IMG/VR virus record: IMGVR_UViG_3300025879_000118
Span: 1-22,942 of that record
DNA: 22,942 nucleotides
Source: a virus
Reading direction: 5' to 3' (one strand)
This document shows, in pieces, positions 3,301 to 22,942 of the stretch. The notes under the pieces were generated by a model. That model was given only the letters and a program-made list of their open reading frames with translations, ran no database searches and was not told the DNA's origin. How positions within the stretch are numbered: position 1 is the stretch's first letter; every line of letters begins with the position of its first letter. The position numbers were made by a program, and so were the translations under genes.

Positions 3301-6300
3301 TCCTGTTCAAACAACATCGTTATTAAACACACCATTCTTTATTAATGCTATTGATGACTCGGTAACAAAGAGAAAAAATGGTATTGAAAATCCATATGTT
3401 TCGTTAGGTTACATGTTTATCAACTCACTTCCACTACAAACGTTAAGGGAGAAGATGAATAGTGGTAAGAAAGATGAACCCTTTAGTGATTACAACTTCG
3501 CCGTTTATAATAAGTTTGCCGCCTTACATAAATTACCTTATGCGTGGGTGGTTAAGTATGGTTCGATATGGCATAGATATAAAAAATATGTTCAGACTCA
3601 GACAGATATATTAGATGGTGTTTGGGAGTCGATTGATGAGGATAATTTATTTGACCCTGTAACTTCACAGAAAACAACATCATATAAGATACCTGCAGGA
3701 ACTGGATTCACCAATGTATCGTTAGACAATACAAATACAAATGCCTTTGGTAATGTAATTCAAAGAGTGAATGTAGGGTTCTATCCGAAGTTGGTTAATG
3801 ACGTTAATTATTTATTTTCATATCAAGAAATAATTACAGGATATACTCAATCTGATTTTACAAATTATAGTCAGGGTAACACTGCATTGGGTGGTAATGG
3901 ATTGAAAGTTTATACGAATAGTCTTTCGAATTTTAATTTTATACCTGGTACTATTGTAGGTGACCCATCAAAGAGTGTTAGTGTTGTTAACAACTATACT
4001 TTCTATGATTCACCATTATTGAATGAAACTGAGTCAGTAGATAAAGTAATTTGTTATCCGTCAGCTGGTGGTGGGGATTTCAATCAATATAGATTTGAAG
4101 TGACGGACGCTAATAATAATGTTAAAACACCATTAAGACAAAGTCTGTATGACGGTTCGGTAAAAACATTATGGGGTGTATCTCATTATGGATACTTTGA
4201 TGCATCAGCGATAGGTAGACCTGATTATTACGAATATGTAAAAGCCATAGACACTAATAAAGAAGAACAACATAGTTTTGATTTATTATCCACATTTGAA
4301 TATTCTTCAATAGAGGAAATATTTGCAGTCTTCAGTGAGGAAGTCTTAGATATGTTTGAAAGTGAATTCTTAACTTTCTGTAAGGACCCTAATAGAGACC
4401 GTGTGGAGAGTGAATATCCTTTCTTATTAGATGTTTTAAAAACACTATTTTTTGTTGACCGACCTACATTGGTTGGTAATGGTGAATTGGACGGTAAATC
4501 AATTGCCCTTTCACAAAAGGAAAGTTTTAAAAGGGGTGTTCAAAAGTTATTTGACTCTAAAGTAATATATAAACAAGGTAACCCTTCTTATTATGATAGA
4601 AGAGTATGGAACTCATTTAGTGATGACACCACATACCAACCAAATCAAAAAATAGATTTTGGTAGTTATATCCCTAATACCTTACCTACTTCAGGTGGAA
4701 CTATCTCTTTAGCTGCGAGTCAGGCGAATAATCTTCAGGCGTGGGAAGCGTTACAACTATCTGTTGGTAGATATTTGGCCACGGGTTATGACTATTCAAG
4801 TAATGGGTCTGTAATAACAGATTTCTTTGTTGATATGGATATTGAGTTTAATGAGAGTAACGTGAGACAACTTAGTCATATCATTAAGATTTATGCCTCA
4901 CAAAAATTTGAGAATCCATCGATGACGGCTTCTCAGTTTATGAATAATTTTAATGATTATCTATCACTACTGAATACATCACAACAGGACATTCAAAATG
5001 TTTTATTTAGACAGTTGAATCAGGATTTGCCGAGTATTATACAAGATGAAGATAAAATAGAATCTTCGATGAAGGGAGATGTGGTTAAACTTGAACTTTA
5101 TGAATTCTTCAAAACACTAAATGATAAATGGATTGCCGGTGGAGACTTCCAAGAAAGAACAATATTTGAAGACTTCTTATTCTTAGATAGAGCGAATAGA
5201 AACATCGGTGATAAATTGATTGTTAATGTTGATGGATTAAGAAAATTCTTAAGCGCTAGAAATGGTAGAAACTCAGTTTATACTTTGATTGGTCACCTGA
5301 TTAAGGATAATAATATGTTGTTCATGGCGTTACCAAGTTATACTAATTTTTATGGTGTAAGTGAACCTTCACCAGGTGCTACACCAAGAGAGGGTATCGA
5401 AGATTCTGCATCGAGTGTGTTTGGGACATTTGCTGAAGTCGACTATTTGGATAATAGACCGAAGTTTGTGTGTCTATATACTGATAGGGTTTCTGAACAC
5501 TTAAATATGGAGAGTAATATAGACTACCGTTATGGTAATGACGGAGTAGACTTCTTCAAAGACCCTGCACTAAAGGAAGAACAAACGGACAAAGATGATT
5601 ATGCTTTTTCGAATAAGGTTGTGGCATTTAATGTGGACTTTGGTGTGAGAAACCAAGGTATATTCCAATCAGTTAGTTTGGACCAATCACAATTCAAAGA
5701 TACATCAGAATCTTTCTTGATTACAACAGATATGGCTAATCAGGCCAAAGGTTCAAAAACTTTCCAACAATCTACTTCATTATATAATATTTACAAAAAC
5801 AGAAGTTATAACTGCCAAGTATTATCGATGGGTAATGTGATGATACAACCAACGATGTATTTTAATTTGAGATATGTCCCAATGTTTAGTGGTCCATATT
5901 GGATTTTAGATGTTAACCATTCAATCACACCAGGTAATTTCACAACAACCTTTAGTGGTGTAAGAATGTCAAAATATTCATTTCCTGATGTTAAAGATTT
6001 GGTAATGAGTGTGAATTTAGATATTCTAAAACAATTAAATGACACATATAGAAGGGAACAACAAGCGACTGAAAGTAGTCAAAATGAAAGTGAAGTTAAT
6101 ACTAATACGGGTCAAACAAGTAATGGTATTAGTGGTCAACAAACGGAAGTTAGTCAAACATTCTGCACACCGTTACAACAATATGAAAACTTACCTTATG
6201 TTTCTCTAAGGACAGAAACACTGGCGTATTCAGAAATTAAGTCATATGCGGATGCCCTGTCACTATCAAATCTTAATGTACGAAGGTTAATAGGTTTAAT

Positions 6301-6748
6301 TCCGTGGGTTGAAAATACAATTAACAATGGACAGATAACCTTTAATAATGGTAATCTTGGTAATTTAATAACTGAAAAAATATTAAGAGGAATTACTAAT
6401 AACGATATTGAAGGTCAAGTTTGTGTTAATGTAGATAATCAAAATAAACCTTTGGCATCTTTTGCAGATTGGAAAACTAGTATGGAAGTAATTAAAACAA
6501 TATTGACAACATCATCAGTTTATAATGATATGACTCAGATAGGTAGTTCTGAGTATGAAAATGAATCAGAGAAACTGTACGCTAAAATTTATATCAAGTA
6601 TTATTACTCACAAATTGGTAGTGATGCTGATTTTAACCGTATAATAACTAATCCATCAAACGATGATGAGAGACAAATACAATCAAGATATAATCAAGTT
6701 GTACCTTTATTTAAGAAAGGTATTAATTGGTATATAGGGTCAATATAA
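317..6748 (+). CDS. Giant hub-like tail/baseplate protein (2143 aa)
   Basis: A very large structural protein, several times the size of T4 gp27 (about 390 residues). Residues 44-65 hold a conserved-looking entry motif (E-H-E-N-L-I-M-Y-A-N-L, then I-I-P-R-T-K-L). Residues 143-254 look like a first tube-type beta domain: S-F-I-P-Q-V-D-I-E, G-R-T-L-F-E, S-A-F-F-Q-L-P-Y-P and L-T-V-K-G-F-Y-G-K. Residues about 1790-1905 look like a second hub domain: S-M-G-N-V-M-I-Q-P-T-M-Y-F-N-L, V-P-M-F-S-G-P-Y-W-I, H-S-I-T-P-G-N-F-T-T-T-F-S-G. That pattern is familiar from gp27/VgrG/GPD-like hubs. About 1,500 residues of unrecognised sequence lie between them. A polar Q/N/S/T-rich linker follows (about 1915-1955), then a compact C-terminal domain (1957-2143). 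No signal peptide or membrane segment is seen. The hub call is inference from motif pattern and from the adjacent gp53. A tube-initiator (gp48/gp54-like) role is an alternative. Confidence 0.65.
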   Translation: MAANSNFRKYYGGEKIAFEQEDNIVLVDPNKIINSDGQLQERLVEHENLIMYANLEANIIPRTKLALGENTDQMSSRLTIANFGQTQDGKINFLKPQGKDYFDSSYTDQLTGQNARGGEGINQTQITDTGNRNVRNVQDTQMLGITSINIKNNSSFIPQVDIEMVDVQGRTLFELGENSPYSAFFQLPYPLFYLTVKGFYGKAVKYELMMKSFNARFDPTDGNYKISISFIGRTAALLSDLSLGALYALPHMYETNVLVQENSDGVAETPEQAQSINQSLTTKIQSGIETEAIIPKVRTRGDDVLNKVYQTYISKGLIDETLPRLSLAQLELRLQNLEEFVRQQFNKEDLSVLNDIELYKKTISIYREDITLLRPNRWAGENLDSGKRYVDKEGNIYYLTKKSLNGDLQKQEDTQESLRAKINDYNNRLNTNATFGQDGEYTILGKTKQSAIPIDISSNDIITSLSYDDLDLLKTYMVQLNATPNDAELAAFSASTFVDFNLIKKYYNKDLTVDEDLSNVFYTFGEISDSSKFKIGSFFNKLNLIEKQFTDTSEIIQKELSAALAQKIESPDGGLGFRPTIKNVMAMLIANVDAFYRLMDEVHREAWNLKDDPIRKSVIISPETANGVDSKDSVLGSTGEENFIYPWPQYFEREVDGKNVRDVVKYLGDPSCEGRTRAYLYDKWPEVEFVEQFIRGDLQRREEQKTLNYRNSRETIPSISVNAVEYPYNIVPYTNLSEVNFLYELWERTYLASNYTKLFRRPKSSLNMSQVVGEFEATTIIEAIKGDPFLSKKLKNYGLNASNFESVLRSISNEGQGPSWGKFVSDVFVTPYIQEYENNFQKIYSLETYYADSPKATIAAEIQKNLREYLKSTTNNPLTFTDVYPLTNLSWLRANIQKGAGIASANKANETTKTYFFVDYKKALASFDPATVESKDFSYTPTMLTKWYNYDSPPIQLPSKETIKQRYLDKVDKNEFFVSEGVIDYTGNYSGYVDNPVQTTSLLNTPFFINAIDDSVTKRKNGIENPYVSLGYMFINSLPLQTLREKMNSGKKDEPFSDYNFAVYNKFAALHKLPYAWVVKYGSIWHRYKKYVQTQTDILDGVWESIDEDNLFDPVTSQKTTSYKIPAGTGFTNVSLDNTNTNAFGNVIQRVNVGFYPKLVNDVNYLFSYQEIITGYTQSDFTNYSQGNTALGGNGLKVYTNSLSNFNFIPGTIVGDPSKSVSVVNNYTFYDSPLLNETESVDKVICYPSAGGGDFNQYRFEVTDANNNVKTPLRQSLYDGSVKTLWGVSHYGYFDASAIGRPDYYEYVKAIDTNKEEQHSFDLLSTFEYSSIEEIFAVFSEEVLDMFESEFLTFCKDPNRDRVESEYPFLLDVLKTLFFVDRPTLVGNGELDGKSIALSQKESFKRGVQKLFDSKVIYKQGNPSYYDRRVWNSFSDDTTYQPNQKIDFGSYIPNTLPTSGGTISLAASQANNLQAWEALQLSVGRYLATGYDYSSNGSVITDFFVDMDIEFNESNVRQLSHIIKIYASQKFENPSMTASQFMNNFNDYLSLLNTSQQDIQNVLFRQLNQDLPSIIQDEDKIESSMKGDVVKLELYEFFKTLNDKWIAGGDFQERTIFEDFLFLDRANRNIGDKLIVNVDGLRKFLSARNGRNSVYTLIGHLIKDNNMLFMALPSYTNFYGVSEPSPGATPREGIEDSASSVFGTFAEVDYLDNRPKFVCLYTDRVSEHLNMESNIDYRYGNDGVDFFKDPALKEEQTDKDDYAFSNKVVAFNVDFGVRNQGIFQSVSLDQSQFKDTSESFLITTDMANQAKGSKTFQQSTSLYNIYKNRSYNCQVLSMGNVMIQPTMYFNLRYVPMFSGPYWILDVNHSITPGNFTTTFSGVRMSKYSFPDVKDLVMSVNLDILKQLNDTYRREQQATESSQNESEVNTNTGQTSNGISGQQTEVSQTFCTPLQQYENLPYVSLRTETLAYSEIKSYADALSLSNLNVRRLIGLIPWVENTINNGQITFNNGNLGNLITEKILRGITNNDIEGQVCVNVDNQNKPLASFADWKTSMEVIKTILTTSSVYNDMTQIGSSEYENESEKLYAKIYIKYYYSQIGSDADFNRIITNPSNDDERQIQSRYNQVVPLFKKGINWYIGSI

Positions 6749-6768
6749 GAAAATTAACTATTTTGATA

Positions 6769-6776
6769 TATTTATA
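6769..6776 (+). promoter_or_regulatory. Candidate phage promoter element TATTTATA
   Basis: TATTTATA lies 15 bases before the ATG of the 74-residue gene. Near-identical octamers sit before the gp25-like gene and the post-gp6 giant gene. It resembles a single-element, T4-late-type promoter, but AT-rich DNA makes chance matches common. There is no obvious -35 partner. Confidence 0.3.
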
Positions 6777-6791
6777 TAGAAAAGTAATATT

Positions 6792-7016
6792 ATGAACGTA
6801 AAATCATTATTAGACCAGTATTTGTCGAAAGACACTAGAATTACTGAAAGAGATGCCGGAAATGGTTACAAAGAGGTTTGTGACTTAGACACAGGAGACT
6901 GTTATACCGTTAGTATGAGAGACGGACTTATTGAGCGAGTTGACAATACAAGACAAGTAAACAGAACCCTTAAAGTTGAAACACCTCACGGTGTGAAGAC
7001 ACTATTGAATGGTTAA
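6792..7016 (+). CDS. Small protein of unknown function (74 aa)
   Basis: I do not recognise this protein. It is a small, soluble, charged protein with no signal peptide or membrane segment. The middle has a short beta-like section: G-Y-K-E-V-C-D-L-D-T-G-D-C-Y-T-V, with two cysteines (Cys29 and Cys37) eight residues apart, followed by M-R-D-G-L-I-E-R-V-D. The C-terminus carries K-V-E-T-P-H-G-V-K-T. The start is well supported: a 15-base block ending in the ATG (AAAAGTAATATTATG) recurs with one mismatch at the start of the next gene. It sits between the giant hub-like gene and the acidic coiled-coil gene, so a virion or morphogenesis role is possible, but nothing in the sequence proves it. Confidence 0.65.
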   Translation: MNVKSLLDQYLSKDTRITERDAGNGYKEVCDLDTGDCYTVSMRDGLIERVDNTRQVNRTLKVETPHGVKTLLNG

Positions 7017-7026
7017 AAGTAATACT

Positions 7027-7647
7027 ATGGCAATCGATAATAAAATATTAGAAGAATTAAAAAGACACAACTCTATTAATTCTTATTTGGTAGAACAAGA
7101 AGAACCTGTAGACTTAGGTGATGAAACACCTGATGCGGGTGACGAATTAGATTTAGAGGTGGGTGCTGAAGAAATTCCTGAACCTGTTGATATTGAAACT
7201 GACCCTGATGTTGAGAAATTAGACGACGAGGGTAATGTTGAAGGTGAAGATATGAGTGGTGACACTGAAGAGTTAGAGATTACAGATTTAGTAAACAAGC
7301 AAAACGAAATCTCAGATAAACAAGACGAGTATATGGACTCAATGTTTGATAAGTTGAACGACTTAGAAAGCAAGTTGTCACAGATGGACCAAATCTTAAC
7401 AAAGATTAATGACATCGAAGCTAAGGTTGAGAAATATCGTGAGAAGTCACCAGAGGAGAAATTACAATTGAGAAGTTTGGATAGTTATCCGTACAATCAG
7501 AAGTTGACAGACTTCTTCGCTGACAAAGAAGTTGAGATGCAACAAACAGGTAAGAACGAATACGTTTTGACCTCTGATGAAGTAGAAAACTATTCAGATG
7601 CAGATATCAAAAAGTCATTCGATACACCTATCAATGACGAAGAATAA
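7027..7647 (+). CDS. Acidic coiled-coil protein of unknown function (206 aa)
   Basis: No family is recognised. The protein has three parts. Residues 1-22 form a short basic/amphipathic start. Residues 23-85 are extremely rich in Asp and Glu and probably disordered. Residues 86-140 are a heptad-like coiled coil (repeats around M-F-D-K-L-N-D-L-E-S-K-L). A C-terminal part (141-206) includes L-D-S-Y-P-Y-N-Q-K-L and ends acidic. An in-frame ATG at 7009 would overlap the previous gene. I prefer 7027 because the 15 bases ending there (AAAAGTAATACTATG) match the previous gene's start context at 14 of 15 positions. Highly acidic coiled-coil proteins are often scaffold or core proteins in phages, but here that is only a guess. 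A terminator follows directly. Confidence 0.7.
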   Translation: MAIDNKILEELKRHNSINSYLVEQEEPVDLGDETPDAGDELDLEVGAEEIPEPVDIETDPDVEKLDDEGNVEGEDMSGDTEELEITDLVNKQNEISDKQDEYMDSMFDKLNDLESKLSQMDQILTKINDIEAKVEKYREKSPEEKLQLRSLDSYPYNQKLTDFFADKEVEMQQTGKNEYVLTSDEVENYSDADIKKSFDTPINDEE

Positions 7648-7650
7648 CAC

Positions 7651-7679
7651 TTGACAATACACATAATTTTATATATTAT
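7651..7679 (+). promoter_or_regulatory. Sigma70-like promoter motif just before a terminator
   Basis: TTGACA (7651-7656), a 17-base spacer, then TATTAT (7674-7679): one mismatch from the full sigma70 consensus. The predicted start (about 7686) falls inside the terminator hairpin, so any transcript would lose most of the 5' arm and might escape termination. It could help drive the SSB gene, or be chance in AT-rich DNA. Confidence 0.35.
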
Positions 7680-7712
7680 AAGGCCACTCAAATGAGTGGT
7701 CTTTTTCTTTTT
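7680..7712 (+). terminator. Rho-independent terminator
   Basis: A 10-base-pair stem AAGGCCACTC / GAGTGGTCTT (one G-U pair) with an AAAT loop, followed by a T-rich tract (CTTTTTCTTTTT). It closes the 6792-7647 transcript and insulates the SSB gene from tail-gene read-through. Confidence 0.9.
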
Positions 7713-7718
7713 AGTCAG

Positions 7719-7746
7719 TTGACTTTTAAGGTTTGAAGACTATACT
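7719..7746 (+). promoter_or_regulatory. Sigma70-like promoter for the SSB gene
   Basis: TTGACT (7719-7724), a 16-base spacer and TATACT (7741-7746) lie after the terminator and about 50 bases before the SSB start. With a terminator on both sides, this gene appears to have its own transcript, as T4 gene 32 does. The Bacteroidota-type -7 element (TAnnTTTG) was looked for and not clearly found. Confidence 0.5.
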
Positions 7747-7795
7747 TATTATTGAGTTTTAAGAGAAACAATTAACAGAGTAAAAAGAAAAAATT

Positions 7796-8656
7796 ATGGG
7801 AAATGCACTCGACGCTGTGTTAGCACAGTATGAAAAAAACACCCAACGTTCAAGTAACAGTGGGAGTAACACAATGTCTCAAGAAGACAGACTAAAAAGA
7901 TACTTTACAACGTATCTTCCTAAAGGGACCAAATCTGGTCAAAAAGTAATCCGTATCCTTCCAACACCTGATGGTTCTTCACCATTTAAAGAGGTGTGGT
8001 ACCACGAAGTACAGATTGATGGTAAATGGACTAAATTGTACGACCCGGGTAAGAATGACGGTGAGCGTTCACCACTTACTGAGGTATATGAAGAATTGAT
8101 GTCTACAGGTAAAGAGGCTGACAAAGAATTGGCTCGTCAGTACCGTCCACGTAAATTCTACATCGTTAAGGTAATTGACCGTGAGAATGAAGACCACGGA
8201 CCTAAGTTTTGGAGATTTAAGGATAACTACAAACAAGAAGGTATCTTGGATAAAATCATTCCAATTTGGAAACAAAAAGGTGACGTGACTGATGCTAACG
8301 AAGGTCGTGACTTGATTGTTGATTTATCTAAATCAAAGACACCTTCAGGTATTGAATACACAGTAGTGAAAACTATTATGTATGACGACCCAGCATCAAT
8401 TCATGCAAACAAAGATTTGATGAAGGAATGGGTTGAAGACGAGTTGACTTGGAAGGATGTTTATTCACAAAAACCTGTTGAGTATTTGGAAGCTATCGCA
8501 AGAGGTGAGACACCTGTTTGGGATACAGAATTGAAAAAATACGTTTATGGTGACGACACAGAAGTGACTTTGGGAGGTTCAGTAGCCTCTGACTCAAACA
8601 CTACAGTGAAAGACCCACAAGCGGGAATGCAAGTTGATACGGACTTACCGTTCTAA
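7796..8656 (+). CDS. gp32-like single-stranded DNA-binding protein
   Basis: This 286-residue protein matches the T4 gp32 type of ssDNA-binding protein, which coats ssDNA during replication and recombination and works with UvsX and gp41. The core (about 28-215) shows Y-L-P-K-G-T-K-S-G-Q-K-V-I-R-I-L-P, then W-Y-H-E-V-Q-I-D-G-K-W, then R-P-R-K-F-Y-I-V-K-V-I-D and K-F-W-R-F-K-D. T4 gp32 has a zinc finger in this region. Here there is no cysteine anywhere in the protein, so that site is lost. The tail is acidic and low-complexity and ends D-T-D-L-P-F, like the protein-binding tip of bacterial SSB. Arg codons are mostly CGT (8 of 12), unlike the AGA/AGG-rich tail genes, fitting high expression. It has its own promoter and terminator, and UvsX follows. 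Confidence 0.88.
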   Translation: MGNALDAVLAQYEKNTQRSSNSGSNTMSQEDRLKRYFTTYLPKGTKSGQKVIRILPTPDGSSPFKEVWYHEVQIDGKWTKLYDPGKNDGERSPLTEVYEELMSTGKEADKELARQYRPRKFYIVKVIDRENEDHGPKFWRFKDNYKQEGILDKIIPIWKQKGDVTDANEGRDLIVDLSKSKTPSGIEYTVVKTIMYDDPASIHANKDLMKEWVEDELTWKDVYSQKPVEYLEAIARGETPVWDTELKKYVYGDDTEVTLGGSVASDSNTTVKDPQAGMQVDTDLPF

Positions 8657-8669
8657 AAAACACTAATAT

Positions 8670-8705
8670 GATGGTAGGGGCTTCTGTCCTTACCATCTTT
8701 ATTTA
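8670..8705 (+). terminator. Rho-independent terminator after the SSB gene
   Basis: A 12-base-pair stem GATGGTAGGGGC / GTCCTTACCATC (two G-U pairs) with a TTCT loop, followed by TTTATTTA. It lies between the SSB stop and the UvsX start. The broken T-tract suggests it may only partly stop transcription, letting some continue into the recombinase gene. Confidence 0.85.
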
Positions 8706-8715
8706 CTAAAAAAAT

Positions 8716-9717
8716 ATGGCAATAAAGAAAAAAGATTTCAAATCGTTGAAGCAGAAATATTCTACTTCGGCAAAGTATAAACCTCAAAGGTTTTTAGATT
8801 TGGGTGAAGCATTTTTGGATGCGGTAGGCTTACCTGGTCCTGCAATTGGTCACCTAAATATGTTCTTGGGTCATAGTGATACTGGTAAAACAACTGCATT
8901 GGTTAAAACTGCGGTAGACGCACAAAAGAAGGGTATCCTTCCTGTCTTTATCATCACTGAACAGAAATGGTCTTTTGACCACGCATTAACAATGGGTTTC
9001 GAATGTGAAGAAGTTGTTGATGAGGAAACAGGTGAGTTGGATTGGGACGGATTTTTCTTATTTAACAACAACTTTGATTATATTGAACAAATCACAGACT
9101 ACATCAACGAATTGTTGGATGCGCAAGAGAAAGGTGAGTTGGAATACGACTTACTATTCTTATGGGATTCTGTTGGTTCTGTTCCTTGTAAAATGACCTT
9201 TGACGGTAAGGGTGGTAAACAACACAATGCCGCAACGTTAGCCGACAAAATCGGTATGGGTATTAACCAAAGAATTGCTGGTTCAAGAAAGGCAACATCA
9301 AACTATGAAAATACATTGGTGATTGTTAACCAACCATGGGTAGAATTACCCGACAATCCTTTTGGTCAACCTAAGATTAAAGCTAAAGGTGGTGAGGCTA
9401 TTTGGTTGAACTCATCATTGGTATTCTTATTTGGTAATCAGAAAAATGCTGGTACCAATAAGATTGCTGCGGTCAAAGACAAAAGAAAAGTTAAGTTTGC
9501 GGTTAGAACAAAGGTATCGGTTATGAAGAACCACATCAATGGATTAGGATATGAGGACGGTAAGATTATCGTAACACCTCATGGTTTCTTGGCAGGAAAA
9601 GAATCTACCGAAGAAAAGAAATCTATTGAACAGTATAAGTCTGAACAATCAGAATATTGGAAAAGAGTAATCGGAACAGATGGTGATTACAAATTGGAAG
9701 AAGTAAAAGAAGTCTAA
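8716..9717 (+). CDS. uvsX: UvsX-type RecA-like recombinase
   Basis: A 333-residue RecA/UvsX-family ATPase that forms filaments on ssDNA and catalyses strand exchange, feeding recombination-dependent replication in T4-like phages. The Walker A loop is G-H-S-D-T-G-K-T-T (about 52-60), followed by an A-V-D-A-Q-K-K-G helix and the I-I-T-E-Q-K-W strand, with Glu82 in the position of the usual catalytic glutamate. Walker B is L-L-F-L-W-D-S (146-152), and a DNA-binding-loop region (about 155-185) has G-G-K-Q-H-N-A-A-T-L. The section around 211-235 (Q-P, G-G-E-A-I-W) is typical of UvsX. The gene lies just after the SSB terminator and before the 5' nuclease, matching a recombination/replication cassette. 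The start is an ATG in an A-run context with no Shine-Dalgarno sequence. Confidence 0.93.
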   Translation: MAIKKKDFKSLKQKYSTSAKYKPQRFLDLGEAFLDAVGLPGPAIGHLNMFLGHSDTGKTTALVKTAVDAQKKGILPVFIITEQKWSFDHALTMGFECEEVVDEETGELDWDGFFLFNNNFDYIEQITDYINELLDAQEKGELEYDLLFLWDSVGSVPCKMTFDGKGGKQHNAATLADKIGMGINQRIAGSRKATSNYENTLVIVNQPWVELPDNPFGQPKIKAKGGEAIWLNSSLVFLFGNQKNAGTNKIAAVKDKRKVKFAVRTKVSVMKNHINGLGYEDGKIIVTPHGFLAGKESTEEKKSIEQYKSEQSEYWKRVIGTDGDYKLEEVKEV

Positions 9718-9735
9718 CCTTTAATTAAGGGTATT

Positions 9736-10743
9736 TTGACAAAGACACTATTAGTTGACGGAAATAATTTATTTAAAATAGGATTTCACGGAGTGAGAGA
9801 TTTGTACCATGAGGGTAACCACATTGGTGCAATCTTCCATTTCGTTAATACCCTCAAAAAGTTCTTGGTGGAACACAATTACGATAAGGTAATCGTATTT
9901 TGGGATGCTGAGGATAATTCACAGTCGAGAAGAGACTTACTCGAACAATACAAAAGAAATAGAAAGAGAACTCTTAACGAGGCGCAACAGATGTCATTTG
10001 AATGGCAGTTGTCACGAACTAAGAAGTACCTTGAAGAAATGTTTATCCGTCAGGTATGTATTGATGGTTGCGAATCGGACGACGCGATTGCGCACTATTG
10101 TAACATATCTGAGGATGAATACAAAACTATATTTTCATCAGATAAGGACCTTACACAACTTATCTCAGATAAAGTAGAGGTCTACTCACCTAACCACCGA
10201 AAAGTCTATAAGAACGGAGATATAATACCTCTGAAAGACATTTCAATACCACACTACAATGTAACGACATTTAAGATATTATCGGGGGATAAATCTGATA
10301 ACATTGATGGTATTCACTTATTAGGTGAGAAAACTTTTGCTAAGTTATTTCCTGAGATATTGGACAAAGCAGTTTCTGTTGACGATATTATACAACATGC
10401 CGAAGAATTACAATCTGAAGGTGACAAACGCAAGATTTTAACGAGTATCATTGAAGGGAATACTAAAAGGGGGGTTTTAGGAAAAGAATTCTTTGATATT
10501 AACAAAAAGGTTGTAGATTTGTCAGACCCAATGATAAGTGATGAAGGTAAGGAGGAAGTTGAACTCTACTATACAGAAGAGTTGGACCCTGAAGGAAGAG
10601 GATATCAGAATCTCATGAGAATGATGATGAAGGATGGAATCTTCAAATACTTACCCAAACAAGATGATGGTTGGGTGGATTTTTTAACACCGTTTATGAA
10701 ACTTACACGTAAAGAAAAAAAACGTTACAAAAACAAAAATTAA
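9736..10743 (+). CDS. rnh: RNase H / FEN-type 5'-3' nuclease (T4 Rnh-like), TTG start
   Basis: A 335-residue 5' nuclease of the FEN/T4 RNase H family, which removes RNA primers and 5' flaps from lagging-strand fragments. The acidic metal-binding residues are all visible: Asp8 (L-L-V-D-G-N-N), Asp57 (V-F-W-D-A), Glu113/Asp115/Asp116 (C-E-S-D-D-A-I-A), Asp136/Asp138 (S-S-D-K-D-L) and Asp185/Asp188 (S-G-D-K-S-D-N-I), followed by the helix-hairpin-helix-like G-I-H-L-L-G-E-K-T. A basic arch stretch (R-R-D-L-L-E-Q-Y-K-R-N-R-K-R) lies at 65-78. No in-frame ATG exists upstream of the Asp8 motif, so the TTG at 9736 is the most likely start. T4 RNase H is about 305 residues, so the length fits. The next gene begins 3 bases after the stop. 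Confidence 0.9.
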   Translation: MTKTLLVDGNNLFKIGFHGVRDLYHEGNHIGAIFHFVNTLKKFLVEHNYDKVIVFWDAEDNSQSRRDLLEQYKRNRKRTLNEAQQMSFEWQLSRTKKYLEEMFIRQVCIDGCESDDAIAHYCNISEDEYKTIFSSDKDLTQLISDKVEVYSPNHRKVYKNGDIIPLKDISIPHYNVTTFKILSGDKSDNIDGIHLLGEKTFAKLFPEILDKAVSVDDIIQHAEELQSEGDKRKILTSIIEGNTKRGVLGKEFFDINKKVVDLSDPMISDEGKEEVELYYTEELDPEGRGYQNLMRMMMKDGIFKYLPKQDDGWVDFLTPFMKLTRKEKKRYKNKN

Positions 10744-13934: not shown

Positions 13935-15641
13935 ATGAGCGATAGAAAACCATTTGAATGGATTAATGAAGAATCAATCACCTTCTTACAAAGAGGATAT
14001 CTTAGTGAGGGTGAAGAACCGTTACAGAGAATCAGAACAATTGCAGATTATGCTGAGAATCTGTTAGGTATTGAAGGGTTTGCAGATAAATTTTATGACT
14101 ATATGGGTAAAGGGTGGTATTCACTATCTTCACCTGTATGGGCTAACTTTGGTAAGAAGAGAGGTCTACCGGTAAGTTGTTTCGGTTCTAATATTGGTGA
14201 CAATATTGAGTCGATTCTTTACACACAAGCTGAAGTTGGTGAGATGAGTAAGATGGGTGGAGGTACCTCTGGTTACTTTGGTAACATTAGAGAAAGAGGT
14301 GCTGAGATTACTGACAATGGTCTCGCACCTGGTTCGGTTCACTTTATGAACTTATTCGAGAGTGTTGTAGATAACATATCTCAAGGGTCAACACGTCGTG
14401 GTCGTTTCTCACCATATTTACCAGTGGAGCACCCTGATATCATGGAGTTCTTAGAAATTGGTACGGAAGGTTTTCCAATTCAAGATTTAACTCACGCGGT
14501 TACTGTAACTGATGAGTTTATGAACGAGATGATTGCTGGTGATGAAAAAAAGAGAGCAATTTGGGCTAAAGTAATCCAAAGAAGAGGTGAAATTGGTTAC
14601 CCATACATCATGTTCCACGACACGATGAATAACAAGACAGTTGACGTATACAAAGATAAAGGTGCGAAGATTTACAACTCTAACCTTTGTTCAGAGATTG
14701 CACTTCACAACTCTGAAGAAGAGTCATTCGTTTGTGTATTGTCATCAATGAATGTTCTGCACTACGATGAGTGGAAAGACACTGACGCAGTTGAAACGAT
14801 GACTATGTTCTTAGACGCGGTTGTTACTGAATTCTTAACTAAGATTGAGGATATTAGAGATAACGGAACTATCGAAGGTAGGAGAGGTTTCTTCTATTTG
14901 GAGAAAGCTTATAACTTCGCTAAGAGACAAAGAGCGTTAGGTTTAGGTGTATTGGGATGGCACTCACTATTACAGTCAAAGGGTCTACCATTTGATACTA
15001 GAGAAACTGCGAGATTGAATGTTGAGGTATTCAAACTTATCAAAGATAAGTCATATGCCGCTTCAGAGAAGTTGGCTGAAATGTTTGGAGAACCAGAATA
15101 CTTAAAAGGTTATGGTAGAAGAAATGTTACGTTGAATGCAATTGCACCTACAACATCTTCAGCATTTATCTTAGGGCAGGTATCACAATCAATTGAACCG
15201 ATTTGGTCTAACTGTTATGTGAAGGATGTTGCTAAGATGAAAGTAACCATTAAAAATCCGGTATTGAAAAAAGTATTGGTTGAGTTAGGTAAGGATACTA
15301 AAGAGGTGTGGAACAGTATCAAACAAAATGATGGTTCAGTTCAACACTTAGACTTCTTAAGTGACGAACAAAAGGATATCTTCAGAACATTTGCTGAGAT
15401 TAATCAATCATCAATTATTAATCAAGCTGCGGTTCGTCAAGACTATATTGACCAATCACAATCACTAAACCTAATGATTTCACCTGACATGCCGACAAGG
15501 GATGTTAACAAACTTCTTATTGAAGCTTGGCAGTTGGGTGTGAAGACATTATATTACCAACACTCAATGAATTCGGCTCAAGCTTTCGCAAGAAAGAAAT
15601 TGAATTTGAATGACTTACAGTGTGTTGCTTGTGAAGGTTAA
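13935..15641 (+). CDS. nrdA: Class I ribonucleotide reductase catalytic subunit NrdA (short, no ATP-cone)
   Basis: A 568-residue catalytic (alpha) subunit that reduces ribonucleotides to deoxyribonucleotides for phage replication. Catalytic residues are complete: Cys82 (L-P-V-S-C-F) and Cys267 (F-V-C-V-L-S-S) form the active-site redox pair. Asn250, Cys252 and Glu254 (S-N-L-C-S-E) are the radical and proton-relay residues. Tyr540/Tyr541 (T-L-Y-Y-Q) are the radical-transfer tyrosines, and the C-terminal Cys563/Cys566 (Q-C-V-A-C-E-G) shuttle electrons. It is far shorter than E. coli NrdA (about 760 residues) because it has no N-terminal ATP-cone. Overall activity control has moved to the cone on NrdB just upstream. 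The gene order is nrdB then nrdA with a 20-base gap, and a strong terminator follows. Confidence 0.95.
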   Translation: MSDRKPFEWINEESITFLQRGYLSEGEEPLQRIRTIADYAENLLGIEGFADKFYDYMGKGWYSLSSPVWANFGKKRGLPVSCFGSNIGDNIESILYTQAEVGEMSKMGGGTSGYFGNIRERGAEITDNGLAPGSVHFMNLFESVVDNISQGSTRRGRFSPYLPVEHPDIMEFLEIGTEGFPIQDLTHAVTVTDEFMNEMIAGDEKKRAIWAKVIQRRGEIGYPYIMFHDTMNNKTVDVYKDKGAKIYNSNLCSEIALHNSEEESFVCVLSSMNVLHYDEWKDTDAVETMTMFLDAVVTEFLTKIEDIRDNGTIEGRRGFFYLEKAYNFAKRQRALGLGVLGWHSLLQSKGLPFDTRETARLNVEVFKLIKDKSYAASEKLAEMFGEPEYLKGYGRRNVTLNAIAPTTSSAFILGQVSQSIEPIWSNCYVKDVAKMKVTIKNPVLKKVLVELGKDTKEVWNSIKQNDGSVQHLDFLSDEQKDIFRTFAEINQSSIINQAAVRQDYIDQSQSLNLMISPDMPTRDVNKLLIEAWQLGVKTLYYQHSMNSAQAFARKKLNLNDLQCVACEG

Positions 15642-15727: not shown

Positions 15728-16192
15728 ATGGCTAACGGTAAAACATACGGTATTAATTTTCCTTTTCAGGATAGTAAAGAAGGTAAGTATCTTTCTCTTT
15801 CACAAACAACGGATGAAGAGATTAGAACTGACTTACTTCATTTAATTCTAACTCGAAAGGGTAGTAGGTATTATTTACCTGACTTTGGAACAAGAATTTA
15901 TGAGTTTATTTTTGAACCGATGGATGGTACAAGTTTCGAAGCAATTAAAGAAGATGTAAAAAATTCAATAGAAAAGTATATTCCTAACCTAACTGTTAAT
16001 AATATTACATTGACACCATACCTTGAAGATTTAGAGGCCGAGGGAGAATTAAATCAGGAGAAATTAGGTATCGGTGGAATATATAGAATACCTGGTAGAG
16101 GTACTGAAGAGTATACTGCAAAACTAAGAATAGATTATTCAATAAATGACGGAACTTTTGATTCCAAAGATTTCGTAATCATAAATATTTAA
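15728..16192 (+). CDS. gp25-like baseplate wedge protein
   Basis: A 154-residue protein of the GPW/gp25 family, a lysozyme-fold wedge protein that nucleates the contractile sheath at the baseplate in T4-like phages and related injection machines. The family core lies at residues 10-85: N-F-P-F-Q-D, S-L-S-Q-T-T-D-E-E-I-R-T-D-L-L-H-L-I-L, T-R-K-G-S-R, then L-P-D-F-G-T-R-I-Y and F-E-P-M-D. The C-terminal half (about 90-154) includes an extra loop, E-L-N-Q-E-K-L-G-I-G-G-I, and ends in a beta strand. It is the first gene after the nrdA terminator, and the gp6-like gene begins 6 bases after its stop, the same 25-then-6 neighbourhood seen in many T4-like phages. Confidence 0.93.
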   Translation: MANGKTYGINFPFQDSKEGKYLSLSQTTDEEIRTDLLHLILTRKGSRYYLPDFGTRIYEFIFEPMDGTSFEAIKEDVKNSIEKYIPNLTVNNITLTPYLEDLEAEGELNQEKLGIGGIYRIPGRGTEEYTAKLRIDYSINDGTFDSKDFVIINI

Positions 16193-16198
16193 TAGTAT

Positions 16199-18037
16199 AT
16201 GGCGAATAGAAAAATATCATATACCGAAAGAGATTTCGAAGGGTTAAGACAGGACCTCGTAAATTATACAAGACAGTATTATCCTGAACTTATTGACAAC
16301 TTCAACGATGCCGCAGTTTATTCGGTATTGATGGATTTGAACGCAGCCATTGGTGATAACTTAAATTACCATATCGATAGAAGTATTCAAGAAACAGTAT
16401 TACAGTATGCACAACAACGTTCATCTATCTTTAATATTGCCAGAACTTATGGTTTAAAGATTCCAGGTAACAGACCTTCTGTTGCTTTGGTTGATTTTTC
16501 AATAACTGTTCCACCCGCTGGTGACCAAGAAGATACAAGATACTTAGGTATCCTAAGAGCGGGGTCTCAAGTTATCGGTGCGGGTCAAGTATTTGAGAAT
16601 GTTTACGACATTGATTTTGCTTCTCAATACAATAACGAAGGATACCCTAACAGAACTAAAATTCCTAACTTCGATTCTAATAATACACTTATTAATTACA
16701 CTATTACTAAGAGAGAGGTTGTCGTTAATGGTATTACTAAAGTTTATAAGAAAACAATAAACAACAATGATGTAAGACCTTTCTTTGAATTCTTCTTACC
16801 TGAGAAAAATGTTTTAAATGTTGTTGATATCATTCAAAAAGATGGGACATCATTCCAATCTACACCATCATATACAGAGTTTGTAAATGCACAGGTCAGA
16901 TGGTATGAGATGGATGCGTTAGCGGAAAGTACGGTTTTTGTTGAGGACTCAACAAAAGTATCCGATAATCCAGGTCTCAAGGTGGGTAAGTATATTGATA
17001 CGGATTTTAGGTTTATTACGGAATATACGCCTAATGGTTTCATGAAAGTTCAGTTTGGTGGAGGAACAACAACACCTGACGACCAGTTAGCCGAATTCGC
17101 AAGAAATGGGGTTTCATTGAGAATACAAGACTATCAAAACAATATTGGTTTAGGTAGGACAGTATCACCAAACACCACATTATTTGTAAAATATAGAATT
17201 GGTGGTGGAGATGCATCAAATGTAGGTGTAAATGTAATCAATCAATTGGGGACTATTAACTTTGCGGTTACGGGACCAAGTAACTCTATTAACCAACAAG
17301 TTGTTAATTCTTTATTTGTAAACAATGTTACTGCTGCTATCGGAGGTGCTAATCAGCCGTCTATTGAAGAGATGAGGAATATGGTGACCTTTAACTTTGC
17401 ATCACAGAACAGGGCTGTTACAGTAAACGACTATAATGCGTTGATTAAGAAAATGCCAGGAAAATACGGTGCACCTGCTAAAACCGCGATTACGGAAAAG
17501 GACAATAAGATTAATATTGAAGTTCTTTCATTTGATGCTAATGGTAGTTTAACTCAGACTGTTTCGAACACCTTGAAACAAAACATAGCCAACTATCTAT
17601 CTAAGTATAGGATGATAAATGATTATATATCTGTAAATGTGGCTCAAGTAATTGATTTAGAATTTGATATTTCAGTAGCTATTGATTCGGCACAAAATCA
17701 GGGTCAGGTGATTACAAAAATTATTGATGAGGTAAATCAGGTCATGGCTCCGATGGATAGAGACTTAGGTCAAAATGTATTCTTGTCCGATATTAGAAGA
17801 AGAATCCAAGATGTTGCGGGCGTTATTTCCGTTTCTGACTTATCAGTCTTCAATAAGACAGGTGGTCAATATTCATCATCTGAGACATCTCAAAGATATT
17901 CAGATGCGGAGACTAAAAAGATATTACCAGTTGATGATACAATCTTTGCTGAACCAACTCAAATCTATCAAGTAAGGTTTCCCGAAAAAGATATTAAGGT
18001 GAGAGTTAAGAACTTAAAGACGGTCGACTTTAAGTAA
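16199..18037 (+). CDS. gp6-like baseplate wedge protein (baseplate J-like)
   Basis: This 612-residue protein resembles T4 gp6 (660 residues), the clamp-like wedge protein whose dimers form the inner baseplate ring and hold it together during contraction. The N-terminal part has the family signature Y-T-E-R-D-F-E-G-L-R-Q-D-L and N-D-A-A-V-Y-S-V-L-M-D-L-N-A-A-I-G-D-N-L-N-Y-H (about residues 8-55), then I-A-R-T-Y-G-L-K-I-P-G-N-R-P-S. The central part includes F-G-G-G-T-T-T-P-D and K-Y-R-I-G-G-G-D-A-S-N. A baseplate-J-like part begins near I-E-E-M-R-N-M-V and N-R-A-V-T-V-N-D-Y. The C-terminus is about 48 residues shorter than T4's. It directly follows gp25, as expected for a wedge operon. Confidence 0.9.
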   Translation: MANRKISYTERDFEGLRQDLVNYTRQYYPELIDNFNDAAVYSVLMDLNAAIGDNLNYHIDRSIQETVLQYAQQRSSIFNIARTYGLKIPGNRPSVALVDFSITVPPAGDQEDTRYLGILRAGSQVIGAGQVFENVYDIDFASQYNNEGYPNRTKIPNFDSNNTLINYTITKREVVVNGITKVYKKTINNNDVRPFFEFFLPEKNVLNVVDIIQKDGTSFQSTPSYTEFVNAQVRWYEMDALAESTVFVEDSTKVSDNPGLKVGKYIDTDFRFITEYTPNGFMKVQFGGGTTTPDDQLAEFARNGVSLRIQDYQNNIGLGRTVSPNTTLFVKYRIGGGDASNVGVNVINQLGTINFAVTGPSNSINQQVVNSLFVNNVTAAIGGANQPSIEEMRNMVTFNFASQNRAVTVNDYNALIKKMPGKYGAPAKTAITEKDNKINIEVLSFDANGSLTQTVSNTLKQNIANYLSKYRMINDYISVNVAQVIDLEFDISVAIDSAQNQGQVITKIIDEVNQVMAPMDRDLGQNVFLSDIRRRIQDVAGVISVSDLSVFNKTGGQYSSSETSQRYSDAETKKILPVDDTIFAEPTQIYQVRFPEKDIKVRVKNLKTVDFK

Positions 18038-18112: not shown

Positions 18113-21100
18113 ATGGCTAAGTCTTATAGGATTAGAACAAAATTAGGGACCGACCAAAACATCCGTGTTAATATTGAACAAGATTTTGATTTTCTCGAAA
18201 TTTTATCTCTCAAATTAAGACAAGAGGATGTTTACTCACAATTCTGTGCCGATTATGGTGTGGTTGTGGGTCGTGTTGTTGGTAATAGTGGTTTCGGTAT
18301 TGCTAATGCGAAGATATCTATATTCGTTCCTGTTGAGGAGATGGACTTAGAAGACCCTGTAATATCAGCCTTATACCCATACACGTCACCTGTCGATAAA
18401 AATGAAGATGGGTATCGTTACAATCTTTTACCTTATGAGAAACAGTATGGTGGACACACACCGACAGGAACATTCCCATCGAGAGGTGATGTTTTAACAA
18501 GGAATGAGGTATTAGAAATCTATGAAAAATACTACAAGTATGTTGTAAAGACCAATGACAGTGGTGACTTTATGATTACTGGTGTTCCATTAGGTAGTCA
18601 AAAGATTATGATGGATTTAGACTTATCAGATATGGGTTGTTTCTCTTTGAGACCTCAGGATTTGATAAGAATGAATATGGGTGTTGCCGAGCAGTTTGAC
18701 GGAACCAACTTCAAAGCTTCTGAAAATCTTAATGCTTTACCTCAGATTATTAATAGTGTTAAAGATATTGATGTAACACCATTTTGGGGTCAAGAAGACC
18801 TATGTAATATTGGTATCACAAGAACGGACTTTGATTTAAGGGACTTGGGTATTGAAATACAACCAACGTCGGTCTTTATGGGTTCAATTTTTTCTGATAA
18901 TGACAACAGACCAATCAAGAAAAATTGTAAACCGAGAACAGAACAAGGTGACTTATGTAATTTATCTACTGGTCCTGGTGAAATTTTAGCCGTTAGACAG
19001 ACCATTGATATCGATGAAAATGGTGACCCAATATTGGAACAATACCAACTGTTAAATGGTGGTAAAGTAATTGATGGAGACGGGACCTTTGTTGTGGATG
19101 TTCCGATGAACTTAGATTACGTTGTTACCAATGAGTATGGTGAGACAGTAATCTCTAATGACCCATCTATAGGTGTTCCGACTAAGGGTAAATACAGGTT
19201 TAAGGTAAAATATCAATCAGAGGAGAATGGTCCTGCAATCAATGGGGATGCGTTATTCCCAATTAGAGGGGAGATTCAAAGAGCCAATTTTATTGTTCCA
19301 CAAATCAGGGAACATGGATGGACAGGGACTACTGCAAATTCAGGAGTAGACCCTTCAACTAAGAGTTCATCAATTATTACTAACGTTGATTTCTTTGATA
19401 CTACTCAGGTTGTTGAGTCTAAGACTATTACGATTGGAGCTAATCAATCTATATATGTTAAACCAAACGGTGATACGGAAAAGATTGAAGTGTATGTTAA
19501 TAATATTTTACAAACACAAAAATGGATTGATTTCCCATCGGGTGGTAATGTAACGATAACTGTTACCAAAAAGACAACTACAAATGGTAATGTGGTCGTT
19601 GGTAATAATGCAACTATTGAAGTTGAGAAGTTTGACTATGACTACATCCAATTTCAAAAGTCATATGCGTTTTCTTTAGATTGGAATGACTATGCTGATA
19701 AGAACGCGGCAATAGCATGTGAGGATTCATTCTATATGATGAATTACAATAAGGTATATACTACATCACAATTGATTGATGAGTATAGAAAAGGTTATGG
19801 TCGTGCGAGGTTCTTAGGTATTAAAGAGGTGTTAGATAGAGGGTGTGAGGGTGATACTAATAAATTCCCTGTTAATGATGGTGTTAGGAACTTCAACTTG
19901 TTGTTCTTAATTATCAATTTATTACTGACAATTTTCACACCAGTACTTTTATCGTTGACGGTTATCGGTCACGTCATCTGTTTTTTATGGCCAATATTGA
20001 GATTATTGTTAGGTGTTATACTGTCCGTATTATTTGGGGTTATTATTATCATATGTAATATTTTTAAAGGGTTGGCGTGGTTAATAGGTCAGGGTAGTAA
20101 AATAAATTGTCCAACATATACGCCAATTACGTTACAAAAGAAATGTCCGTTATCCGCTATTCCTTTACCAAACTTATCATATCCTGAGTGTCAGGCTTGT
20201 GCATGTGAAGGACGTGACGCAGGTGAAAATGATTCAATAAATGAAGATGAAATTATAAATTCTAACATATCAAGTTTGGTGGACGTAAACTCTACTACAT
20301 TCTTTAATAGAATAAATGCGGTAGATAGAAATGATGAGGTTAGAGAAGGTTGGAGTAGTAAATATACAAGTGGGTTTCAATCTGTCATGGCTGGATTAGA
20401 AACTGATGAAGAAGAGGAATTTTCAAGAGCACCGTTTACTGATAAAGATTATAACGCATCAACCAGTAAAAAGTTTAGGTCGAGAGACTTACCATTGGCT
20501 GAAAAATTTAACTTATTTAATGCTAAAGCGAAATATCATGACCACGGTGGGTGGAACTCTATAAAGGTTAAAGTTAATAAGAATTTACCGATTAACTCAT
20601 CAAAATCACACACAGATAATGTTTTGATGATGATGGTAGACCCTAGTGAAATAGGTAATTATCCTGCGGGGCAGTTAATATCGTTTCAGAATCCTGATAA
20701 CTCTACTGACCCTAACGTAAATACTAATATAACAGGTAACACTACATTTAATTCAAATGGTATTGCGAATATTACGGTTCCATACATGTCGACAAATCAA
20801 GCGTCGACTTCCACTAATTATGAAATTACTGGTGGTTCTCAGAATATTACATATAAATTTGTATCTGATGTTGAATACTTCCAAGTAGTTACGGCAACCA
20901 CTGTAGGGGATTATCATAATATTTCTCAGAATTTACCTAATGGTGATATGGTTTCGGGGTATGGTTCGTCCTACAGTAATAGTTTTGCACAAAGATATTT
21001 GTTTGGTTGGCAGAAAGTCGAAAAAACAGGTGGAGATAACCCTGATGAATATCCTGATGATTCTACTGGTACTTTTGATAATGGTAAATTTGAAATAAAT

Positions 21101-22942
21101 GCCCCTAATATCCAACTGAATAATGGTTGGAAAGATTTGGTTATTGTATTCTTAGTAAGGGGTGTGGATGTTAATACCCCAAAACAAGATATTGAATATG
21201 AGTTAACTAAACTATATGGTGGGACATCATTCAACGGTTCGGTTAAGGTTAGAGGTAGGTATTATTTGAATTTACCGATTCAACCGTATTCGTCTTCTAA
21301 TAATAAAGCCGTTATTAGACATGATGAGTTAACAACAAATAACTCTACAGATAATAGTGGGTATAGAAGATTATACTTTAAGTCATTTACATATACTCCA
21401 TCACAGAGTGATTACCAAAGTTATACAACTAAATTACATCGTCATTATAATGCTTACTCTGTTAAAGATAAGGAACAGATTGGTATGTATGTTGGGTCCA
21501 CTAAGAGTTTAGGTAATTCAATCTCAACAACAGATAATGCAGTTAGAGTTTCTGATAGTGGTAGTTGGGACCGTATGATTAGTGGAAATAATTACGAGTG
21601 GGGTTATTATGATGAGGAAATTGTTGAAGGGGTAGGTGCAATATTCTGTAAAGATGGGACACCTAATGTGCCAACTGATTATGTATTCATGTCACCAACG
21701 TATTATAGATTATATCCTAATCATACTATTGCTATGTCTGATAATGAGTATATCTTAATGAGGTCAGATAGATTACCGACATCGGATAAACATAATTTTA
21801 GATTTGCCTTACATCAAAATTCTAAATTTATGGTTTACAAAGTATCTGAAGATGGTGAGGTTACAGGTATTAGTACTGGTGTTGAAAGTCTTGGTGGTGA
21901 AGGTGATGATTTCAATGAAGACGCAGGTGCAATTGCTACACAGATTAATCAAACCTTCTCATGTGAGGGAATGGTTCCGTTGGAGTGTTATTCGGGTTCA
22001 GGATACTCAATTGGTGTCCAACCATCCGATGATAGATGTTACTACGTTGATAATGCTAAGACCGTTAAGAAAATGTATGGTGGTTGTTATTATCTAATTA
22101 CTAAGAACTTCGCTATTGGTGAAGACTTCCAATCTATTGCTGAATGGAAGGCAAGATTTAGAATGATGTTTGCTCTTTGTAATAATGTGGTTTCTTTGAG
22201 TTTTGTTAACAACTGGGTTAATGGTTCATTATATATGTTTGCATTCCAAAAAGACGACATATATAGTAATGATATTAACAGTAGTAAGTTCTTAACGAAC
22301 CCTGAGTATCAATACTGTGAAGATACGATTGTGTATCAGACTCAAAACAATTCATTCTTCTACAGAGCGACACCATATAATAATGGGTTTATTGGTAGAG
22401 ATAACGAACCTCAGGATAATATTTTAGGACAAAGTAACGCTGCGAATAAAAAGTTCTTAGGTAATCCTACTACTATTATGGATTTAGGACCAAGAGATGA
22501 GTTTATCAAAGAGTTGTGTTATAACCCTGAATTCCAAGGATATATTGTGGATACGGTTAAAACTTCATCATACAACGACACGTCCGATATTATGCAATTA
22601 TTTGCGATATCAAGATTGACGAGTTCAGGTTTTTGGAATCAAATATTCGGATTAGGTGACGCATCAATTGCTCGTTTATTCTCAAGAGATAATAGTAGAT
22701 TAGATGGTGATATAGCACAACTTATTAGTATTAATTCTGAGTATGGTGTTATTCCGTATTTAGGTTCTAACTATACTGATGATGATGTATTATATTATGA
22801 GGTAAACGGAGACCCGACATTGGGTGTATTCTTCCAAGCGAATACTGTTAACCGAGATATGATTACACCGGGTAGATTTACCTTCCAAGATATTAATGGT
22901 AGTTTCCTATACGATTATTATGGACACAATGACCAAGAGGTT
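18113..22942 (+). CDS. Giant baseplate/tail structural protein with hydrophobic hairpin segment (partial, 3' end outside window)
   Basis: An open frame of 1610 codons with no stop before the window ends. Directly after gp6, this is the place of T4 gp7, so a wedge or peripheral baseplate role is likely, although no clear gp7 similarity is seen. Residues about 48-170 look like a carboxypeptidase-regulatory-like beta-sandwich: V-V-G-R-V-V, I-A-N-A-K-I-S-I, then T-N-D-S-G-D-F-M-I-T-G-V-P-L-G, with an insertion between. Residues 594-659 are strongly hydrophobic (F-N-L-L-F-L-I-I-N-L-L-L, then L-L-L-G-V-I-L-S-V-L-F-G-V-I-I-I-I), like two or three membrane helices. A cysteine cluster follows (Cys666, 678, 693, 696, 698). 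The rest is beta-rich and Asn/Ser-rich, as in fibre-like proteins, with Y-H-D-H-G-G-W-N-S near 810. The ATG at 18113 is the only sensible start. Confidence 0.75.
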   Translation, partial: MAKSYRIRTKLGTDQNIRVNIEQDFDFLEILSLKLRQEDVYSQFCADYGVVVGRVVGNSGFGIANAKISIFVPVEEMDLEDPVISALYPYTSPVDKNEDGYRYNLLPYEKQYGGHTPTGTFPSRGDVLTRNEVLEIYEKYYKYVVKTNDSGDFMITGVPLGSQKIMMDLDLSDMGCFSLRPQDLIRMNMGVAEQFDGTNFKASENLNALPQIINSVKDIDVTPFWGQEDLCNIGITRTDFDLRDLGIEIQPTSVFMGSIFSDNDNRPIKKNCKPRTEQGDLCNLSTGPGEILAVRQTIDIDENGDPILEQYQLLNGGKVIDGDGTFVVDVPMNLDYVVTNEYGETVISNDPSIGVPTKGKYRFKVKYQSEENGPAINGDALFPIRGEIQRANFIVPQIREHGWTGTTANSGVDPSTKSSSIITNVDFFDTTQVVESKTITIGANQSIYVKPNGDTEKIEVYVNNILQTQKWIDFPSGGNVTITVTKKTTTNGNVVVGNNATIEVEKFDYDYIQFQKSYAFSLDWNDYADKNAAIACEDSFYMMNYNKVYTTSQLIDEYRKGYGRARFLGIKEVLDRGCEGDTNKFPVNDGVRNFNLLFLIINLLLTIFTPVLLSLTVIGHVICFLWPILRLLLGVILSVLFGVIIIICNIFKGLAWLIGQGSKINCPTYTPITLQKKCPLSAIPLPNLSYPECQACACEGRDAGENDSINEDEIINSNISSLVDVNSTTFFNRINAVDRNDEVREGWSSKYTSGFQSVMAGLETDEEEEFSRAPFTDKDYNASTSKKFRSRDLPLAEKFNLFNAKAKYHDHGGWNSIKVKVNKNLPINSSKSHTDNVLMMMVDPSEIGNYPAGQLISFQNPDNSTDPNVNTNITGNTTFNSNGIANITVPYMSTNQASTSTNYEITGGSQNITYKFVSDVEYFQVVTATTVGDYHNISQNLPNGDMVSGYGSSYSNSFAQRYLFGWQKVEKTGGDNPDEYPDDSTGTFDNGKFEINAPNIQLNNGWKDLVIVFLVRGVDVNTPKQDIEYELTKLYGGTSFNGSVKVRGRYYLNLPIQPYSSSNNKAVIRHDELTTNNSTDNSGYRRLYFKSFTYTPSQSDYQSYTTKLHRHYNAYSVKDKEQIGMYVGSTKSLGNSISTTDNAVRVSDSGSWDRMISGNNYEWGYYDEEIVEGVGAIFCKDGTPNVPTDYVFMSPTYYRLYPNHTIAMSDNEYILMRSDRLPTSDKHNFRFALHQNSKFMVYKVSEDGEVTGISTGVESLGGEGDDFNEDAGAIATQINQTFSCEGMVPLECYSGSGYSIGVQPSDDRCYYVDNAKTVKKMYGGCYYLITKNFAIGEDFQSIAEWKARFRMMFALCNNVVSLSFVNNWVNGSLYMFAFQKDDIYSNDINSSKFLTNPEYQYCEDTIVYQTQNNSFFYRATPYNNGFIGRDNEPQDNILGQSNAANKKFLGNPTTIMDLGPRDEFIKELCYNPEFQGYIVDTVKTSSYNDTSDIMQLFAISRLTSSGFWNQIFGLGDASIARLFSRDNSRLDGDIAQLISINSEYGVIPYLGSNYTDDDVLYYEVNGDPTLGVFFQANTVNRDMITPGRFTFQDINGSFLYDYYGHNDQEV

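Follow-up and report, generated by a model that had tools for sequence, protein, structure and literature searches.

We describe here a genuine membrane-type helical segment, as judged by sequence and structure prediction, in residues 594-659 of the giant protein encoded immediately after gp6 in a contractile-tailed phage. The reading we favour, to which we give slightly better than an even chance, is that this is a baseplate (wedge-region) virion protein and that the segment, hereafter the block, consists of stored membrane-active helices that insert during infection. The block is a good candidate for the part inserting into the host membrane at DNA injection. We infer its location in the virion, its copy number, its storage, release and insertion into a membrane, and its role as a pore or an anchor; release on contraction to form a pore, as originally predicted, would be one such scenario. 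For T4, how the DNA of a contractile-tailed phage passes through the host membranes is openly described as unknown, including what happens at the inner membrane (PMC11054660). Podophages and siphophages offer published examples of membrane-active tail-tip segments, and no conserved case from a contractile baseplate region was found in the literature compared.

The baseplate module and the giant post-gp6 protein

The window, that is, the whole stretch of DNA analysed, is a 22,942-base virus record with a T4-like module. Its genes include a gp53-like gene, a gene for a 2,143-residue protein, replication-type genes, ribonucleotide reductase, gp25, gp6 and the giant post-gp6 protein, the last three placed as follows:

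15728..16192, + strand: gp25-type baseplate wedge gene (GPW_gp25), adjoining gp6
16199..18037, + strand: gp6-type baseplate wedge gene (Baseplate_J), immediately upstream of the giant protein gene
18113..22942, + strand: ORF of the giant post-gp6 protein, 1,610 residues in the window, ending at the contig end
18113..19312, + strand: conserved N-terminal region of the giant protein, residues 1-400, with Ig/pilin-like and CarboxypepD_reg-like strands

The adjacent gp25 and gp6 wedge genes are those of a T4-type contractile baseplate module, and a near-identical 50-kb contig adds a contractile sheath match (1.8e-58) and a tail tube match (1e-29). Two further contigs encode the giant protein at 100% identity, and its complete length, given by contigs L002 and L009, is 1,731 residues. 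The likeness to the T4 baseplate lies in the gp25 and gp6 homologues and their order; it does not extend to the giant protein, for which no sequence relation to T4 gp7, gp8 or gp10, or to any solved baseplate protein, was detectable in PDB, PHROGs, Pfam or NCBIfam. The window's protein has no match of any kind in the last three collections, a weak Pfam match to CarboxypepD_reg appeared in two of the 11 family members scanned, and hmmsearch of PDB sequences with the family profiles A2 and A3 gave nothing at E<=1. No cultured-phage relative was found by tblastn of the phage collection. Foldseek returned Ig/pilin-like matches for the N-terminal part, with TM-scores of just 0.05-0.13 over the query, and nothing for the C-terminal half. 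The one real relative in a viral structure library is an uncharacterised protein of Myoviridae sp. ctPuP5 (43%).

A membrane-type helical segment

The coordinates given in the original prediction were borne out, 19892-20089 being residues 594-659 of the ORF that starts at 18113. The block and its surroundings comprise the following features:

19730..19876, + strand: conserved anchor preceding the block, residues 540-588 (FYxxxYNKVYT...GIKE...C578....N.FPVN)
19844..19846, + strand: Cys578, first of four invariant bracketing cysteines (100% in 86 homologues; 66-sequence alignment)
19898..20011, + strand: family-wide amphipathic hydrophobic helix, residues 596-633 (predicted helix 596-624 and the start of the next)
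19988..20083, + strand: residues 626-657, forming the second hydrophobic helix usual in the window's clade (group A)
20189..20206, + strand: C693-x-x-C696-x-C698 motif after the block (IPLPNLSYPECQACAC), 100% in 86 homologues

On the Kyte-Doolittle scale residues 596-655 average 2.28; in 5,000 shuffled versions of the giant protein, the best 60-mer averaged 0.65 +/- 0.17 and reached 1.43 at most. Insertion energies of 19-mers were computed with values of the Hessa 2005 scale; on these values, 19-mers below 0 kcal/mol start only at positions 596-597 and 622-633, and the next best elsewhere in the protein stands at about +7 kcal/mol. The stretch had been called unbroken, which holds for 593-629 and 631-651, both free of charges, but R630 and K652 interrupt it. 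It had also been thought long enough for two to three transmembrane helices. AlphaFold2, run on the monomer with a 66-sequence alignment, gives two, 596-624 and 626-657, as a helical hairpin with a pLDDT of about 80 and a break at the W626-P627 already named; a third was not obtained, and the flanks of the block, at a pLDDT below 50, are unreliable. The view that the surroundings look soluble was upheld, the membrane-type segment being real and lying within an otherwise soluble-looking, baseplate-located protein.

Conservation in the family

Family loci were harvested from IMG/VR and GTDB contigs with an HMM on the N-terminal residues 1-400, the best 80 matches of each scan being taken. This gave at least 262 loci and 204 distinct proteins spanning the block site. 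A block, leniently defined by a single 19-mer scoring 1.6 or more on the Kyte-Doolittle scale anywhere from residue 400 to residue 800, is present in 201 of the 204 among these best matches: 80/80 in group A, the window's own, 74/74 in group B, 46/47 in group C and 1/3 in MAG contigs. The group C figure was not built in by the query, since that set was fetched with a block-less protein. With the stricter Hessa threshold (below 0 kcal/mol), 155 of the 204 pass inside the block and none outside it; group B blocks are marginally insertion-competent, 41 of 74 falling below 0 kcal/mol. The block is kept in relatives down to about 33% identity. In the window's group its identity ranks with the lowest in the protein (0.32-0.51 per column, against about 0.7 just before it), yet it stays hydrophobic.

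The gp25-gp6 synteny holds in groups A, B and C; of the 232 loci whose upstream DNA extends for at least 2.5 kb, 228 have gp6 before the gene of the block protein. The expectation that homologues after gp6 would carry the hydrophobic block has stood up, the three block-less exceptions (L105, L107 and L199) being short forms of about 730-770 residues (L199 is cut) with no gp6 found in the 2.8-8 kb examined upstream. One of them, L107 from a Bacteroidota MAG (3906-10187), lies beside sheath-like and tube-like genes, so the short forms also belong to contractile phages; used as a query, it found no viral relatives. The same MAG encodes a second relative (L275) of 810 residues, which adjoins gp6 and has a shorter block (Kyte-Doolittle 2.11). 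In the cultured phages with a related gp6, immuto and Mel-JY01, the neighbouring tail proteins checked have no equivalent segment, from which it follows that contractile tails can do without the block. An ordinary hydrophobic run in one poorly assembled contig would have explained the block by chance or artefact; we give this practically no credence, and it was ruled out by the identical sequence in the two further contigs, by retention in the 201 relatives and by a hydropathy far outside that of the shuffles.

An amphipathic helix common to all groups

Across residues 596-633, hydropathy averaged by alignment column has a period of 100-102 degrees in each of groups A, B and C, with p<=4e-4 when compared with shuffled columns. 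In group A the narrow polar stripe is made of N602, T606, T609, H620, W626, P627 and R630, and hydrophobic residues occupy about two thirds of the circumference of the helix. This periodicity and the stripe together mark what the groups share as a long amphipathic helix of some 38 residues, hydrophobic for the most part. A second hydrophobic segment is a usual feature of group A, in which the median hydrophobic extent is 74 residues against 44. A membrane hairpin had been proposed: its membrane-type helical character is conserved, but a simple two-transmembrane hairpin was ruled out as the common form, because groups B and C keep mainly the one amphipathic helix.

An amphipathic rather than uniformly hydrophobic block could also be the hydrophobic core of a helical oligomer, in the baseplate or around the tube, that never meets lipid. 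The marginal hydrophobicity of group B for a membrane fits such a bundle, and so does the helical pair folded by AlphaFold2. We nevertheless consider it unlikely, though still a serious rival. When 98 ORFs taken from the 50-kb contig and from 100 kb of sequence of a 290-kb relative are ranked by their most hydrophobic 38-residue stretch, the two giant-protein copies come first, with means of 2.2-2.5; the median is 0.49 and the 95th percentile 1.08. Moreover, the hydrophobic two thirds of the circumference speak against burial, and the length and number of the helices vary, the distance from C578 to C693 ranging from 72 to 158 residues, unlike a precisely packed core.

Cysteine bracket and small cysteine-rich protein

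In group A, C578 and C693xxC696xC698 bracket two hydrophobic segments. The cysteines invariant in this group are C45, 231, 272, 282, 536, 578, 693, 696 and 698 in the first 1,000 residues (86 homologues) and C1284, 1325, 1356 and 1402 in the C-terminal half (59 homologues); these thirteen may possibly provide a virion protein with two or three sites for metal. In iron-sulfur tail tips of the lambda gpL type, four conserved cysteines bind a metal cluster. The four invariant cysteines of group A might hold a metal; they bracket the block, in a different context, and the bracket is absent from group B and most of group C.

Groups B and C (loci L106 and L117-L274) instead have a small cysteine-rich ORF with one transmembrane segment between gp6 and the giant gene. 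It is present in every locus with a large enough gap (65/65 in B and 58/58 in C), with a median length of 81 residues in B and 135 in C. The protein starts with MGCxC (MGCNCK) or MGCxxC and contains a single, very hydrophobic segment; a basic tail is usual, and no convincing family match was obtained. A small protein of this type is also encoded in L275, at 3228. No such gene was found in the 110 loci of group A (1.47 Mb of sequence). Over 189 loci, 79 have the bracket only, 102 the small gene only, none both and eight neither. On an 83-row tree, however, the bracket needs one or two changes, so the complementarity amounts to essentially one evolutionary exchange and was ruled out as independent evidence, though it is suggestive.

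A small one-transmembrane protein encoded next to the block protein in groups B and C counts for a membrane-active block. The same neighbour is the type of partner expected at an assembly site, and the helices might anchor the assembling baseplate to the host membrane from inside, or to the small membrane protein, with no role in entry. A precedent for a contractile machine anchored to a membrane in the producing cell is the thylakoid-anchored contractile injection system (PMC8894136). We regard this assembly tether as rather improbable, though worth keeping in mind: the window's clade lacks the small gene in the 1.47 Mb covered, an amphipathic stripe conserved in three groups is more than a tether used only in assembly would require, and the virion would afterwards have to carry or shed a hydrophobic part.

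Comparison with known systems and proposed mechanism

The closest working model is phi29 gp9, six copies of which store hydrophobic loops as a helix bundle inside the tail knob; on leaving the knob, the loops form a helix barrel, hydrophobic on its outside, with a channel about 32 A wide (PMC6542822). Both proteins have a hydrophobic insertion with amphipathic helices in a tail-tip protein, a location that for the block is given by gene position only. The periodicity of the block with its narrow polar face is the pattern expected of a lipid-facing helix barrel, as in the gp9 loops. However, phi29 is a podophage with a short, non-contractile tail, and the behaviour of gp9 was solved whereas that of the block is deduced; no homology of the giant protein to gp9 was found by tblastn of the phage collection or in PDB sequences. 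In T5, 46 hydrophobic residues of the tape measure pb2 have been proposed to form two transmembrane helices (PMC10038345). These, and the hairpins of the hub protein pb3 (PMC10038345), belong to a siphophage, pb2 being its tape measure, whereas the block is in a contractile phage and its gene follows gp6 instead of lying between tube and hub genes.

The megatron of R4C and RcGTA resembles the block protein as a baseplate protein with hydrophobic helices. Those of its iris/penetration domain are believed to move out of a closed gate and make a pore in the outer membrane, and the hub protein has a four-cysteine iron-sulfur cluster (PMC10276861). There, N-terminal helices of three megatron copies take part in a siphophage; here, the block is internal, cysteine-bracketed and within one polypeptide. 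Finally, a transmembrane helix in the baseplate-attached protein Cis13 was shown to anchor the thylakoid-bound contractile injection system (PMC8894136). This is a short segment in a tail-fibre-like protein directed to the producer's own thylakoid, and the two proteins have no demonstrated homology. The giant protein would thus be like known tail-tip membrane elements in its working, but it lies outside those families.

We favour stored membrane-active helices on the precedent of phi29 gp9 and of the tail-tip membrane segments of T5 pb2 and the R4C megatron, and because no other protein among the sheath-to-fibre tail genes sampled, candidate tape measures included, has such a segment. Retention of the block in nearly all relatives, its lasting hydrophobicity despite sequence drift, its insertion energies, its amphipathic periodicity and the constant gp25-gp6 setting also speak for this reading. 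Against it we count the marginal blocks of group B, the three short block-less relatives and the absence of such a segment from the neighbouring tail proteins checked in immuto and Mel-JY01. Before infection the baseplate would keep the helices shielded from water, probably by contact with other subunits. Its opening on the cell would free them to swing outwards and enter a host membrane, at the cell surface or deeper, with their hydrophobic faces towards lipid and the narrow polar stripe towards a neighbouring helix or a lumen. Several copies could then anchor the baseplate, line an opening for the tail tube or the DNA, or both. Baseplate anchoring in the outer membrane, or membrane-linked assembly, would fit the same data.

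More tentatively, and with considerable doubt on our part, we speculate that this uncultured contractile lineage carries a penetrating helix barrel in a baseplate-ring protein, not in the tape measure. With an in-chain four-cysteine (possibly metal) site in one clade and a separate small cysteine-rich membrane protein in the others, this would be a two-part membrane-opening device and, if true, would explain how certain contractile phages get through the inner or outer membrane. The block occurs in hundreds of phages and is absent from a few natural short forms, and its 66 residues are few enough to be expressed or deleted. It is also a sequence marker for a large, so far uncultured contractile-tailed lineage.

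Host and other observations

The phage had been taken for one of Bacteroidota. In support, no Shine-Dalgarno motif precedes the 12 genes examined, and two distant relatives lie in Bacteroidota/Cytophagales MAGs; however, one relative each lies in Wolfebacteria and Mycoplasmatota MAGs, and we consider the assignment plausible but not proven. The 2,143-residue protein (317-6748), beside the gp53-like gene, has no Pfam or PHROGs match, and a 2,135-residue protein occupies the equivalent place in the 290-kb relative. The large subunit of ribonucleotide reductase (13935-15641) shares about 65% identity with the enzymes of staphylococcal and Sporosarcina phages, in contrast with the otherwise Bacteroidota-like look of the phage.
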